The notes beneath the pieces are model-generated. The model was not told the DNA's origin, did not search any database, and saw nothing but the letters and a program-made list of their open reading frames with translations. Positions 6,581 to 10,321 of a DNA stretch of 12,454 bases are shown piece by piece (within the stretch, counting starts at the first letter, position 1; each line of letters starts with the position of its first letter). The translations under genes and the position numbers were made by a program. The DNA comes from Candidatus Rokuibacteriota bacterium. GTDB taxonomy: Bacteria > Methylomirabilota > Methylomirabilia > Rokubacteriales > JACPHL01. Location: positions 1 through 12,454 of the forward strand of contig JACPHL010000344.1 of the NCBI GenBank assembly GCA_016188625.1. Direction: 5' to 3'.

Positions 6581-7252
6581 ATGGCCGGGCCGCGCATCGG
6601 GGTCCTCGGCGGCACCTTCAACCCGGTCCACCTCGGCCACCTCCTCATCGCGGAGGAGTTCCGGGAGCGGCTCGCCCTGGATCGCGTCCTGTTCGTCCCC
6701 GCCGCCGCCCCGCCCCACAAGGGGGACCGCCGGCTCGCGGACCCGCTCCACCGCTACGCCATGGTCGCCCTCGCCGTCGCCGATCACCCGGCCTTCGCCG
6801 TCTCCGACCTCGAATTCCGCCGTCCCGGCCCCTCCTACTCCGCGGTGACCCTGGAGCTCCTGGCGGGGGAGCTCTCGGGGAGCCTCCTCTACTTCCTCAT
6901 GGGCTCGGACACCTTCCTCGACCTCCCGGCCTGGCGCACCCCGGAGCGGCTGACGACCTGGGCGACGGTGGCGGTCGCCCACCGGGGCGGGGTGAGCTTC
7001 GATCCGGCCTCGCCCGCCGCGGCCGCCGTGCTGGCCCGCCTCGGCCGCCCGGCCTGGCGGCGGGTCCCGCCCGAGCCGTGGAGCGCCATCCCGCCCGGCG
7101 AGGTCATCCTGGTCGAGACCGCCTCGCTCCCCGTCTCGGCGCGGGAGATCCGGCGCCGGGTGGCCGAGGGGCGGTCGGTCCGGTTCCTCGTCCCCCCCGC
7201 GGTGGCGGACTACATCGCGGCCCACCACCTCTACGCGGACCCGGAGCGGTGA
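6581..7252 (+). CDS. nadD: Nicotinate-nucleotide adenylyltransferase
   Basis: Joins ATP and nicotinate mononucleotide to make deamido-NAD, a required step in bacterial NAD synthesis. The 223 residues show the nucleotidyltransferase signature GGTFNPVHLGH at 10-20, then APPHK, the GPSYSAVTLE segment, FLMGSD at about 105-110, and the second ATP-binding motif SAREIR at 186-191. The end VPPAVADYIAAHHLY is typical. ATG 6581 lies six bases after the proA stop, and the reading frame overlaps rsfS by four bases (GTGA), so translation is probably coupled on both sides. nadD next to rsfS is a widespread arrangement. Confidence 0.97.
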   Translation: MAGPRIGVLGGTFNPVHLGHLLIAEEFRERLALDRVLFVPAAAPPHKGDRRLADPLHRYAMVALAVADHPAFAVSDLEFRRPGPSYSAVTLELLAGELSGSLLYFLMGSDTFLDLPAWRTPERLTTWATVAVAHRGGVSFDPASPAAAAVLARLGRPAWRRVPPEPWSAIPPGEVILVETASLPVSAREIRRRVAEGRSVRFLVPPAVADYIAAHHLYADPER

Positions 7253-7611
7253 AGACCGGCCCCGCCGCCGAGCGGAAGGCGCGCCTCGGGGCGCAGGCCG
7301 CCCTGGCCAGGAAGGCCGAGGAGCTCCTGGTCCTGAACCTGGAGGGCCTCTCCACCATCGCCGACTACTTCCTCCTTTGCTGCGGGACCTCCACGACCCA
7401 GATCACGGCGATCGCCGAGGCGATCGAGGGGACCCTCAAGGCGGAAGGCTCCCTCCCCCTCCACCGCGAGGGCGTCCCCGAGAGCGGCTGGATCCTCCTC
7501 GACTACGGCGACGTGGTGATGCACGTCTTCCTCGAGGAGACCCGCCGCTTCTACGCCCTGGAGCACCTCTGGGGCGACGCCCCCGCGCTCTCCCTGGAGG
7601 GGATCGGCTAA
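7249..7611 (+). CDS. rsfS: Ribosomal silencing factor RsfS (Iojap/DUF143 family)
   Basis: Binds uL14 on the large subunit and blocks joining of the small subunit, lowering translation during nutrient limitation. The 120-residue protein has the family blocks STIADYFLLCCGTSTTQ (usually ADYFVI.SG.S..Q), then GWILLDYGDVVMHVFLEETRRFYALEHLWGD. The start is GTG 7249, overlapping the nadD stop as GTGA. It is the last gene of the rplU operon: a strong hairpin begins three bases after its stop. Its position with rplU, rpmA and obgE makes most of this operon a ribosome assembly and quality-control unit. Confidence 0.96.
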   Translation: MKTGPAAERKARLGAQAALARKAEELLVLNLEGLSTIADYFLLCCGTSTTQITAIAEAIEGTLKAEGSLPLHREGVPESGWILLDYGDVVMHVFLEETRRFYALEHLWGDAPALSLEGIG

Positions 7612-7906: not shown

Positions 7907-8281
7907 ATGAAGAAGATGGCCAAGGACCGGTTGTCCTACTTCCGCAAGAGGCTCCTCGACAAGCAGCGGCAGCTGATGGAGGAGGTCGGTCGGAGCGCCC
8001 TCTACGGCAAGGGCCAGGAGGACGACTCCATCAAGGACCTCGGTGACCAGGCGGCCACCGCGTACACCCGTGAGTTCCTCTTCGAGCTGGGCAACGGCGA
8101 CCGTCGTCTGCTCAAGGAGGTGACCACCGCCCTCCGCAAGATCGAGGAGGGAGGGTACGGGGAGTGCGAGCGGTGCGGAGAGCCGATCGCCAAGAAGCGG
8201 CTGGAAGCGCTCCCCTTCGCGCGGTACTGCATCGACTGCCAGCGTCTCGTCGAGGAGGAGGAGCGGAGCGCCGCCGGGTAG
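7907..8281 (+). CDS. dksA: DksA/TraR-family transcription regulator
   Basis: DksA proteins enter the secondary channel of RNA polymerase and, with ppGpp in Proteobacteria, reset transcription of rRNA and biosynthetic genes. The 124 residues comprise an N-terminal helix and a coiled-coil hairpin with DLGDQA at its expected tip. This gives Asp44, Asp47 and Ala49 in the DxxDxA pattern required for E. coli DksA activity. A C4 zinc finger follows with Cys87, Cys90, Cys108 and Cys111 (spacing C-x2-C-x17-C-x2-C, CERCGEPI then YCIDCQ). The protein is shorter than E. coli DksA (151 residues), mainly at the N-terminus. Retention of both tip aspartates and all four cysteines favours a true DksA-like function over a TraR-like remnant. 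The ATG at 7907 is preferred over an upstream GTG that overlaps the promoter. It is first in a cluster with the LapA-LapB protein, four bases downstream. Confidence 0.93.
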   Translation: MKKMAKDRLSYFRKRLLDKQRQLMEEVGRSALYGKGQEDDSIKDLGDQAATAYTREFLFELGNGDRRLLKEVTTALRKIEEGGYGECERCGEPIAKKRLEALPFARYCIDCQRLVEEEERSAAG

Positions 8282-8285
8282 CCCG

Positions 8286-9578
8286 GTGCGGTCGCGGCTG
8301 GCCTTCCTCGCCGTTCTGGGCTTCGCCGCGCTCGTCACCTCTCTGACCCTCCTCAACCCCCACCGCGTCACCCTCCGCCTCACCCCGGGCCTCTCCCTCG
8401 AGCCGCCCTTGATCGCCGTGGTGCTGGGGGCCTTCGTCATCGGCGCCGCGATCTCCGTCCTGCTCTCCCTGATCCGGGACCTCGGGCGCACCGTGGCCGA
8501 GTGGCGGGCCGGGGAGCGGGCGGCCGAGCTGGAATCCGTCGAGCGCCTCTATCACGACGGGGTGGCGGCCCTCCTCAGGGGGGAGACCGATCGGGCCGGG
8601 GATCTCTTCCGGGCGATCCTCCGGCGCGAGCCCTCCCACCGGGAGGCCCTGATCCACCTCGGCGACCTGGCCCACCGCGCCGGGCGCTACGGGGAGGCCC
8701 TGGGGCACCACCAGAAGGCGGTGGAGCTGCGGGAGGACGTCCCCGGGCTCCTCACCCTCGTCGAGGACCTCCGGCTCCTCGGGCGCCCGGCCGAGGCGCT
8801 GGTCGCCCTCGAGCGCGCCCTCGCGCGGGAGCGCTCGCCCGCCCTCCTCGCTGCCCTCCGCGATCTGGCGGTAGAGGAGCGGCAGTGGGCGGCGGCGCTC
8901 CGGGCCCAGCAGGAGCTGGTCCGGCTCGCCCGGGACCCCGAGGCCCGGCGCGCCGAGCACGCCTGGCTGGCCGCGCTCCACTACGAGACCGGCAAGGCGC
9001 TCCTGGCCGCGGGGCAGGCCGCCGAGGCCGCGGGCGCCCTGCGCGAGGCCCTCAAGGCCGACCGGGGCTTCGCCCCGGCCTCGCTGGCGCTGGCGGAGGC
9101 CTACGAGCGATCGGGCGATCACCGCGAGGCGGTGCGGACCCTGGAGCGCGCCGTGGAGCATCACCCCGCCGTGCCGCTGCTCCAGCGGCTCGAGGCCCAC
9201 TACCGCGAGGCGGGCCGCCCCAGCCGGATGATCGAGCTCTACCAGGACGCCCTCGCCCGCTACCCCGGCGACCTGGCGTTGGGGTTCCACCTGGCGCGGG
9301 TCTACTACGAGCTCGGGATGCTGGACGAGGCGGCCGACCAGTTCCAGAAGGCGGAGGTGCAGGCCCCGGCCCTCCCGGCGGTCCACGGCTACCTCGCCCT
9401 CATCGCCGCCCAGCGGGGGGAGCCGACCGCGCTGCTGGCCGAGGCCCGCCGGGCCCTCCAGGAGGCCGGCGCCCTCGCGCTCCCCCACCGCTGCCAGGCC
9501 TGCCAGGCAGGCCACGCGGGCTGGGTGGACCGCTGCCCCGCCTGCGGGCGCTGGAACGCCGTCGTCCCGTCCCCGTAG
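8286..9578 (+). CDS. Single-chain LapA-LapB-like membrane TPR protein with zinc ribbon
   Basis: A 430-residue protein joining features of two E. coli genes. Residues 1-70 match the LapA/DUF1049 plan: a first membrane helix (about 4-23), a short loop containing NPHRVTLRL, and a second helix (about 41-63). A soluble region of about 85-390 follows, built from TPR helices; clear repeats include ALIHLGDLAHRAGRYGEALGH, ASLALAEAYERSGDHREAVR and LGFHLARVYYELGMLDEAADQ. The C-terminus is a rubredoxin-like metal site with Cys403, Cys406, Cys417 and Cys420 (HRCQAC, then RCPACGRW), as in LapB/YciM. In E. coli, LapB is a membrane-anchored TPR protein that, with FtsH, controls LpxC and thus lipopolysaccharide synthesis; LapA is encoded beside it. 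Here both parts lie in one frame with no internal stop. GTG 8286 begins four bases after the dksA stop. The role in envelope control is inferred from architecture. Confidence 0.88.
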   Translation: MRSRLAFLAVLGFAALVTSLTLLNPHRVTLRLTPGLSLEPPLIAVVLGAFVIGAAISVLLSLIRDLGRTVAEWRAGERAAELESVERLYHDGVAALLRGETDRAGDLFRAILRREPSHREALIHLGDLAHRAGRYGEALGHHQKAVELREDVPGLLTLVEDLRLLGRPAEALVALERALARERSPALLAALRDLAVEERQWAAALRAQQELVRLARDPEARRAEHAWLAALHYETGKALLAAGQAAEAAGALREALKADRGFAPASLALAEAYERSGDHREAVRTLERAVEHHPAVPLLQRLEAHYREAGRPSRMIELYQDALARYPGDLALGFHLARVYYELGMLDEAADQFQKAEVQAPALPAVHGYLALIAAQRGEPTALLAEARRALQEAGALALPHRCQACQAGHAGWVDRCPACGRWNAVVPSP

Positions 9579-9601: not shown

Positions 9602-10321
9602 ATGATCGCCTGGCTCGCGCCGCTCCTCGACCTCGTCTTCCCGCCCCTCTGCCCTCTCTGCGAGCGCCGCGTGGACCGCCACGGCCACGATCCGCTCTGC
9701 GCCGGCTGCTGGGCGGCGCTCCCGCGGCTTCGGCCCCCCTTCTGCGCCCGCTGCGGCCGCCCCGTCCCGGGGCTCCCCCCCGCGGAGGTCTGCGAGGCCT
9801 GCCGCCGCGCCCCGCCGCCCTTCGCCTACGCCCGGGCGGTCGCCGCGTACCGGGACGGGATGCGCGAGGCGATCCACCAGCTCAAGTTCCGGGGGCGCGT
9901 CGCCCTCGCCCGCCCCCTGGGCGACCTCCTGGCCGAGGAGGGGGGCGCCGGCGTGCCGGTGGAGGCGATCGACGGGATCGTCCCGGTCCCCCTCCACCCC
10001 CGCCGTCTGGCCGAGCGCGGGTTCAACCAGGCCGAGCTCCTGGCGGCCCGGCTCGCCAGGCGCTGGCGACGCCCGCTCCTCACCAGGCTCCTCGTCAGGA
10101 CGCGCCCCACCCGCCCCCAGAGCGAGCTGGACGAGGCCGAGCGCCGGCGGAACGTGACGGGGGCCTTCCGGGCCCGCGATCCCGCGGCCGCCGCCGGCCG
10201 CCACCTCCTCGTGGTGGACGACGTCCTCACGACCGGCTCCACCCTCGGCGAGTGCAGCCGCGTGCTCCTGGCCGCGGGGGCGCGGGCCGTGGGGGTGCTC
10301 GCGCTCGCGCGCGTCGAGTGA
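9602..10321 (+). CDS. comF: ComF family protein (phosphoribosyltransferase fold with zinc ribbons)
   Basis: ComF proteins are needed for DNA uptake during natural transformation in several bacteria, and the Gram-negative homologue is also called GntX; the biochemical role is not settled. The 239 residues start with paired CxxC knuckles (Cys17/Cys20 and Cys33/Cys36, then FCARC and VCEAC). A type I phosphoribosyltransferase domain follows: IHQLKFRGR, DGIVPVPLHPRRLAERGFNQAELLA, RPQSELDEAERRRNVTGAF and the PRPP-binding loop VVDDVLTTGST at about 204-214. The length is ordinary. ATG 9602 is chosen because family members begin shortly before the first CPLC; the ribosome binding site is weak. It lies 23 bases after the LapA-LapB gene and is probably cotranscribed with it. 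No other competence gene is in the window, so a competence role cannot be concluded. Confidence 0.94.
   Translation: MIAWLAPLLDLVFPPLCPLCERRVDRHGHDPLCAGCWAALPRLRPPFCARCGRPVPGLPPAEVCEACRRAPPPFAYARAVAAYRDGMREAIHQLKFRGRVALARPLGDLLAEEGGAGVPVEAIDGIVPVPLHPRRLAERGFNQAELLAARLARRWRRPLLTRLLVRTRPTRPQSELDEAERRRNVTGAFRARDPAAAAGRHLLVVDDVLTTGSTLGECSRVLLAAGARAVGVLALARVE

Follow-up and report, generated by a model that had tools for sequence, protein, structure and literature searches.

In E. coli, the membrane helix of LapB binds FtsH while its cytoplasmic part recruits LpxC, and YejM sequesters this membrane helix (PMC9356133). The C-terminal ribbon of LapB lies beside the substrate site of LpxC, which LapB also inhibits directly (PMC13333357). 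lapA and lapB are coupled in translation, and their products purify together (PMC7730581); the role of LapA itself in E. coli is unclear (PMC12444477). We were interested in a window of 12,454 nt from a Candidatus Rokuibacteriota assembly (344 contigs, 2.6 Mb, completeness 84%), in which the initial annotation had described a LapA and a LapB fused into one polypeptide downstream of dksA.

The gene in question occupies 8286..9578 on the forward strand (GTG start, stop codon included) and encodes a hairpin-type LapB of 430 aa, in which two hydrophobic helices are followed by a long coil, then TPRs, then a four-cysteine ribbon. Its frame is uninterrupted and strongly biased (GC 0.84/0.50/0.97 by codon position), with the GTG at 8286 as the sole ATG, GTG or TTG across 8124-8400. 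The nearest named relatives come from Rokubacteria genomes, six of which share 44-51% identity over the whole chain; 22 distant relatives still align over this length at 21-34%. Conservation together with coding bias rules out a chance open frame, and the presence of the same chain in many independent genomes rules out two genes joined by an assembly error. Frame, profiles and conservation confirm the proposed single chain with its two-helix N terminus, TPR body and ribbon. The central point of the earlier reading, that LapA hairpin and LapB body are combined in a single protein, is supported.

Hydropathy places the first membrane helix at residues 5-23 (8298..8354, + strand; helix 2-23 in the AlphaFold model) and the second at residues 42-60 (8409..8465, +), the latter also seen in the model and in structural alignments. 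The LapA_dom (PF06305) covers residues 24-83 (8355..8534, +), comprising the loop with Asn24, helix 2 with Gly53 and the start of the coil; Asn24 and Gly53 are invariant columns of the fused-form hairpin. When residues 1-85 or 1-95 are scanned alone, PF06305 scores 29.1-29.5 bits, barely above its cut-off of 28, and on the whole chain it falls below this cut-off (26.6 bits). Across the family, LapA_dom is matched by 24 of 26 fused-form N termini. A profile-profile comparison of the fused hairpins with 20 stand-alone LapAs using hhalign gave 96% probability (E=3e-9), and in both sets the Asn of the loop and the Gly of helix 2 are invariant; the match to E. coli LapA alone was weaker (70%, E=4e-5). 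The LapA-type character of the N-terminal hairpin, claimed from the start, thus finds backing in both the PF06305 match and the hhalign result. HemY_N is also matched by 13 of the 26 N termini, so this type of hairpin is not unique to LapA. The small, stand-alone size typical of LapA is missing here, the LapA part being the N terminus of a 430-aa chain. Likewise, LapB has a single N-terminal membrane helix where this protein has two that form a hairpin, and we therefore class it as a LapB variant rather than as an E. coli-type LapB.

The TPR body spans residues 85-396 (8538..9473, +), as judged by TPR profiles (about 85-395), the AlphaFold model and structural alignment, and the ribbon follows at residues 401-428 (9486..9569, +; PF18073). 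Several comparisons tie this part of the chain to LapB. The best NCBIfam profiles are those of LapB (90.6 bits, residues 75-429), a score that stays far below the equivalog cut-off of 363 bits. Against solved chains, phmmer returned LapB (2e-14, residues 80-428). BLASTP to E. coli LapB was co-linear from end to end (4e-17, 68.9 bits), and hhalign of the family with E. coli LapB, ribbon included, reached E=2e-27. In addition, the two LapB architectures have a number of residues in common, among them (this protein/E. coli) Trp201/Trp157, His142/His92, Asp161/Asp116, Ala138/Ala88 and the four cysteines. Of these, E. coli Ala88 is the site of a lapC suppressor mutation (PMC7730581).

The AlphaFold model (mean pLDDT 86) is weakest in the hairpin, where blocks within residues 1-50 average 48-69. 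In VIA-align, its top four rows were all LapB structures (Z 20.0-21.9), three of which, crystal forms, superimposed at 3.6-3.9 Å over 309-321 residues. The first unrelated TPR protein came close in Z (19.0) but at 9.6 Å; since TPR repeats generally inflate Z, the low rmsd over body and ribbon weighs more. Residues 1-384 of the LapB chain from the YejM/LapB complex aligned on model residues 48-430, and this starting point places LapB's own helix on the second helix of the hairpin. The first-ranked LapB structures, hhalign and the NCBIfam profiles agree on a LapB-type body and ribbon.

The rubredoxin-type ribbon calls for more caution. Cys403/406/417/420 lie where the initial annotation had placed them, are shared by 94% of the hairpin-type homologues and align with Cys357/360/371/374 of E. 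coli LapB. The profile score is borderline: PF18073 gave 21.2 bits against a cut-off of 25.7 in the protein scan and 25.9 bits in the genome search. RadA from the same genome outscores the LapB-type protein with this profile (56.5 bits). The four cysteines, originally read as a mark of LapB, do sit at the LapB position but are not diagnostic by themselves; we rejected the ribbon alone as proof of LapB, and the identity of the protein rests on the whole body. The RadA-like match lies at L111 (G000:C272:21496-21579), and the family name Zn_ribbon_LapB is misleading if used alone.

To see how far this architecture extends, we ran a search profile built from seven Rokubacteria proteins on 388 genomes, 95 of them from the phylum. 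The resulting counts of fused and split forms are lower bounds, each genome having been scored on its best candidates. Full-length fused proteins were found in 14 of the 95 phylum genomes, one of which (G020) belongs to another family of the class, and three more phylum genomes (G058, G081 and G082) hold cut or partial versions. Outside the phylum, the fused form is present in 23 of 293 sampled genomes spread over many families; 22 of these match from the hairpin onwards, and in the remaining one (G329) inspection of the locus revealed the first helix. Two proteins from outside the phylum (G099 and G247) are without the ribbon in the sequence read. The fusion is therefore no novelty of this genome. 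At least 13 genomes show the E. coli layout, in which a single-helix LapB is immediately preceded by a LapA match on the same strand. One genome, G185, combines the fused form with a lapA-lapB pair of the split type (loci L081 and L097); its lpxC is on the contig that holds the fused gene, ~13 kb away. Stand-alone LapA matches accompany the fused form in at least 10 phylum genomes and in several from elsewhere, so that the fused form does not simply replace LapA. The suggestion that a single chain would fix the LapA:LapB stoichiometry is for the same reason, and in view of G185, not a safe one. The genome studied here also carries a second LapA-domain match, at positions 2537-2632 of L109 (G000:C167:7036-7131, - strand), which shares one open frame with MgtE-like sequence and ends after the second helix, possibly through a frameshift. 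We found no description of a fused LapA-LapB in the open-access literature; the architecture may already have an entry in domain databases. We regard the fused form as a genuine version of a known regulator that has received little description; it is old and occurs here and there across many families of bacteria.

Its age is apparent from a maximum-likelihood tree of 60 proteins computed with the hairpin removed, comprising 21 single-helix LapBs including that of E. coli, 33 hairpin forms and six hairpin-less forms from Rokubacteria. A branch with 100/100 support parts the single-helix from the hairpin LapBs, and the six hairpin-less forms group on the hairpin side. With the hairpin kept, the same split was obtained apart from L104, whose first helix lies upstream of the start used. 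As one such branch separates the two sides, a single change of architecture suffices, and a recent fusion in this lineage is rejected by both trees. Judged from these sequences, the fused proteins represent a single old architecture and form a deep clade apart from the E. coli-type LapBs. The tree is unrooted and is compatible with a lapA-lapB fusion or with the split of an ancestral chain; the gene layout needed for a fusion is that of the genomes, at least 13, with LapA upstream of a single-helix LapB.

Many Rokubacteria relatives are without the hairpin, and the tree needs two losses within this group. Most of these forms start with a short conserved helix (MTLLSSLRT and variants) that is too little hydrophobic to span a membrane; in examples such as MTLLSSLRTLVSVGFDLKRLF it looks amphipathic. 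Hairpin and first TPRs are lost, with the short helix in their place, in L011/L066, L058, L060, L062, L063, L064, L065 and L071. In L010/L057 (G082), the first TPRs are deleted inside the chain and the hairpin is retained.

The gene order in the window is proB-like, proA-like, a nadD-like cytidylyltransferase gene (6581..7252, +; PF01467), rsfS (7237..7611, +, start not fixed; PF02410, 100 bits), a DksA/TraR-family gene (7907..8281, +; zf-dskA_traR and DksA_N), the hairpin-type LapB gene, comF (9602..10321, +; DZR_2 and Pribosyltran, with TIGR00201/GntX matches) and gap. The product of the DksA/TraR-family gene scores 83 bits with the DksA equivalog profile, short of the 115.5 bits required. 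The stop codon of this gene (8279-8281) is separated from the LapB start by four bases, as had been noted, and co-transcription of the two genes is plausible from this gap. The further idea of a special link between a stringent-type regulator and the envelope is little supported: outside the taxonomic order, genomes with the fused form repeatedly show nadD, rsfS, dksA-type or SPOUT methyltransferase genes upstream of it and, downstream, comF and phosphoglycerate mutase genes. As a member of an old nadD-rsfS-dksA-comF cluster, the dksA-like gene says little about envelope co-regulation.

What might such a protein do? Both lpxC and ftsH, for which the initial annotation had proposed a search, are found in this genome. 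The observations that it had named as grounds for giving up its reading, namely no LapA profile match, a structure unlike LapB or a genome devoid of lipid A genes, were not made. The presence of lpxC does not discriminate, as 338 of the 388 sampled genomes have this gene, and we rejected its co-occurrence as proof of function. In some fused-form genomes, all draft assemblies, lpxC was not found (G020, G126 and G081). A search across the 95 phylum genomes returned no DUF3413 (YejM-type) protein in this genome and one in seven others, which means that the E. coli circuit cannot be transferred in its entirety. The seven carriers are Rokubacteria (G049, G050, G055, G057, G059, G061 and G064), some with a fused and some with a hairpin-less LapB.

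Taking E. coli LapB as our guide for topology, FtsH docking, and LpxC binding and control, we consider it reasonably probable that the hairpin-type LapB is a membrane-anchored adaptor of the LapB type that presents LpxC to FtsH. A LapA-type two-helix hairpin would replace the single helix of LapB in one chain and would tether the TPR body to the cytoplasmic face of the inner membrane; given a hairpin, both chain ends should be cytoplasmic. TPR body and ribbon would bind LpxC, the hairpin would dock on FtsH, and LpxC would be handed over for degradation, restraining lipid A synthesis. Points against this view are the LapB profile scores, which fall far short of the equivalog cut-offs, and the many Rokubacteria relatives whose proteins have no membrane part. 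By this analogy, the protein probably helps control the amount of outer-membrane lipid made. A bolder and, in our estimate, improbable extension is that the LapB family consists of two ancient halves, of which the LapA-hairpin half runs its own LpxC circuit without a detectable YejM-type anti-adaptor; the hairpin would both dock FtsH and sense the membrane, and some Rokubacteria would have cut it to obtain a soluble or peripheral LpxC binder.

A different job for the same fold deserves consideration. The protein could be a LapB-like scaffold for other inner-membrane or envelope enzymes, without LpxC control through FtsH. The deep 100/100 split from the E. coli-type LapBs would fit such a role, as would the coexistence of fused and split LapB in G185, which suggests different jobs, and the fused-form genes in genomes without detected lpxC (G020). 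E. coli LapB, moreover, co-purifies with many other envelope proteins (PMC12444477). Yet the ribbon, the TPR signature residues and the fold are those of LapB, and lpxC and ftsH are both present in this genome, and we regard a scaffold for other clients as possible but rather unlikely.

The remaining doubts concern the membrane part. If the first helix were no more than an extra membrane segment attached to an otherwise ordinary LapB, its likeness to LapA would reflect general features of membrane hairpins rather than common descent. This would account for the LapB helix falling on the second hairpin helix (LapB 1-384 on model 48-430), the marginal PF06305 score (29 vs 28 bits, 26.6 in the whole chain), the weak match to E. 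coli LapA alone and the HemY_N matches in half of the N termini. It is hard to square with the match to stand-alone LapA (E=3e-9), which aligns the two helices as well as the Asn of the loop and the Gly of helix 2, or with LapA_dom in 24 of 26 members, and we think it unlikely. The same HemY_N matches could point to a HemY-type inner-membrane TPR protein with a two-helix N terminus, for which TIGR00540 (45 bits) and an hhalign comparison with E. coli HemY (E=8e-11) might also speak. We disfavour this reading as very improbable: LapB is far stronger by profile (90.6 bits), by hhalign (E=2e-27) and by BLASTP (68.9 vs 20.0 bits), the HemY alignment stops before the ribbon, and the whole-chain match to HemY is not as good as that to LapB.

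For an LpxC adaptor of the LapB type, the natural LapA-LapB chain found across many families is of broader interest, as it provides an independent argument that LapA and LapB work as one unit. The fused form offers single-chain constructs for asking whether the LapA hairpin contacts FtsH. For the role of the membrane part, ready comparisons exist in G185, with its two forms, and in those Rokubacteria that have naturally lost the hairpin.

Among known systems, RadA resembles the hairpin-type LapB only in its zinc finger, a ribbon of the CxxC...W..RCPxCGxWN kind with the top PF18073 score, which in RadA lies near the start of the protein. HemY likewise combines TPRs with two N-terminal helices, but its match is much weaker and its alignment contains no ribbon. 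E. coli LapA (YciS) and the stand-alone LapA/DUF1049 proteins have the two-helix hairpin with conserved loop Asn and helix-2 Gly; they are small separate proteins without TPRs or ribbon, and they have been retained by genomes that also encode the fused form. E. coli LapB (YciM) differs in having one N-terminal helix and a separate lapA gene in front of it, and it stands on the other side of the tree at about 25% identity, yet it shares with the protein described here a membrane-anchored TPR body of equal length and fold, the TPR residues listed above and the C-terminal four-Cys ribbon.
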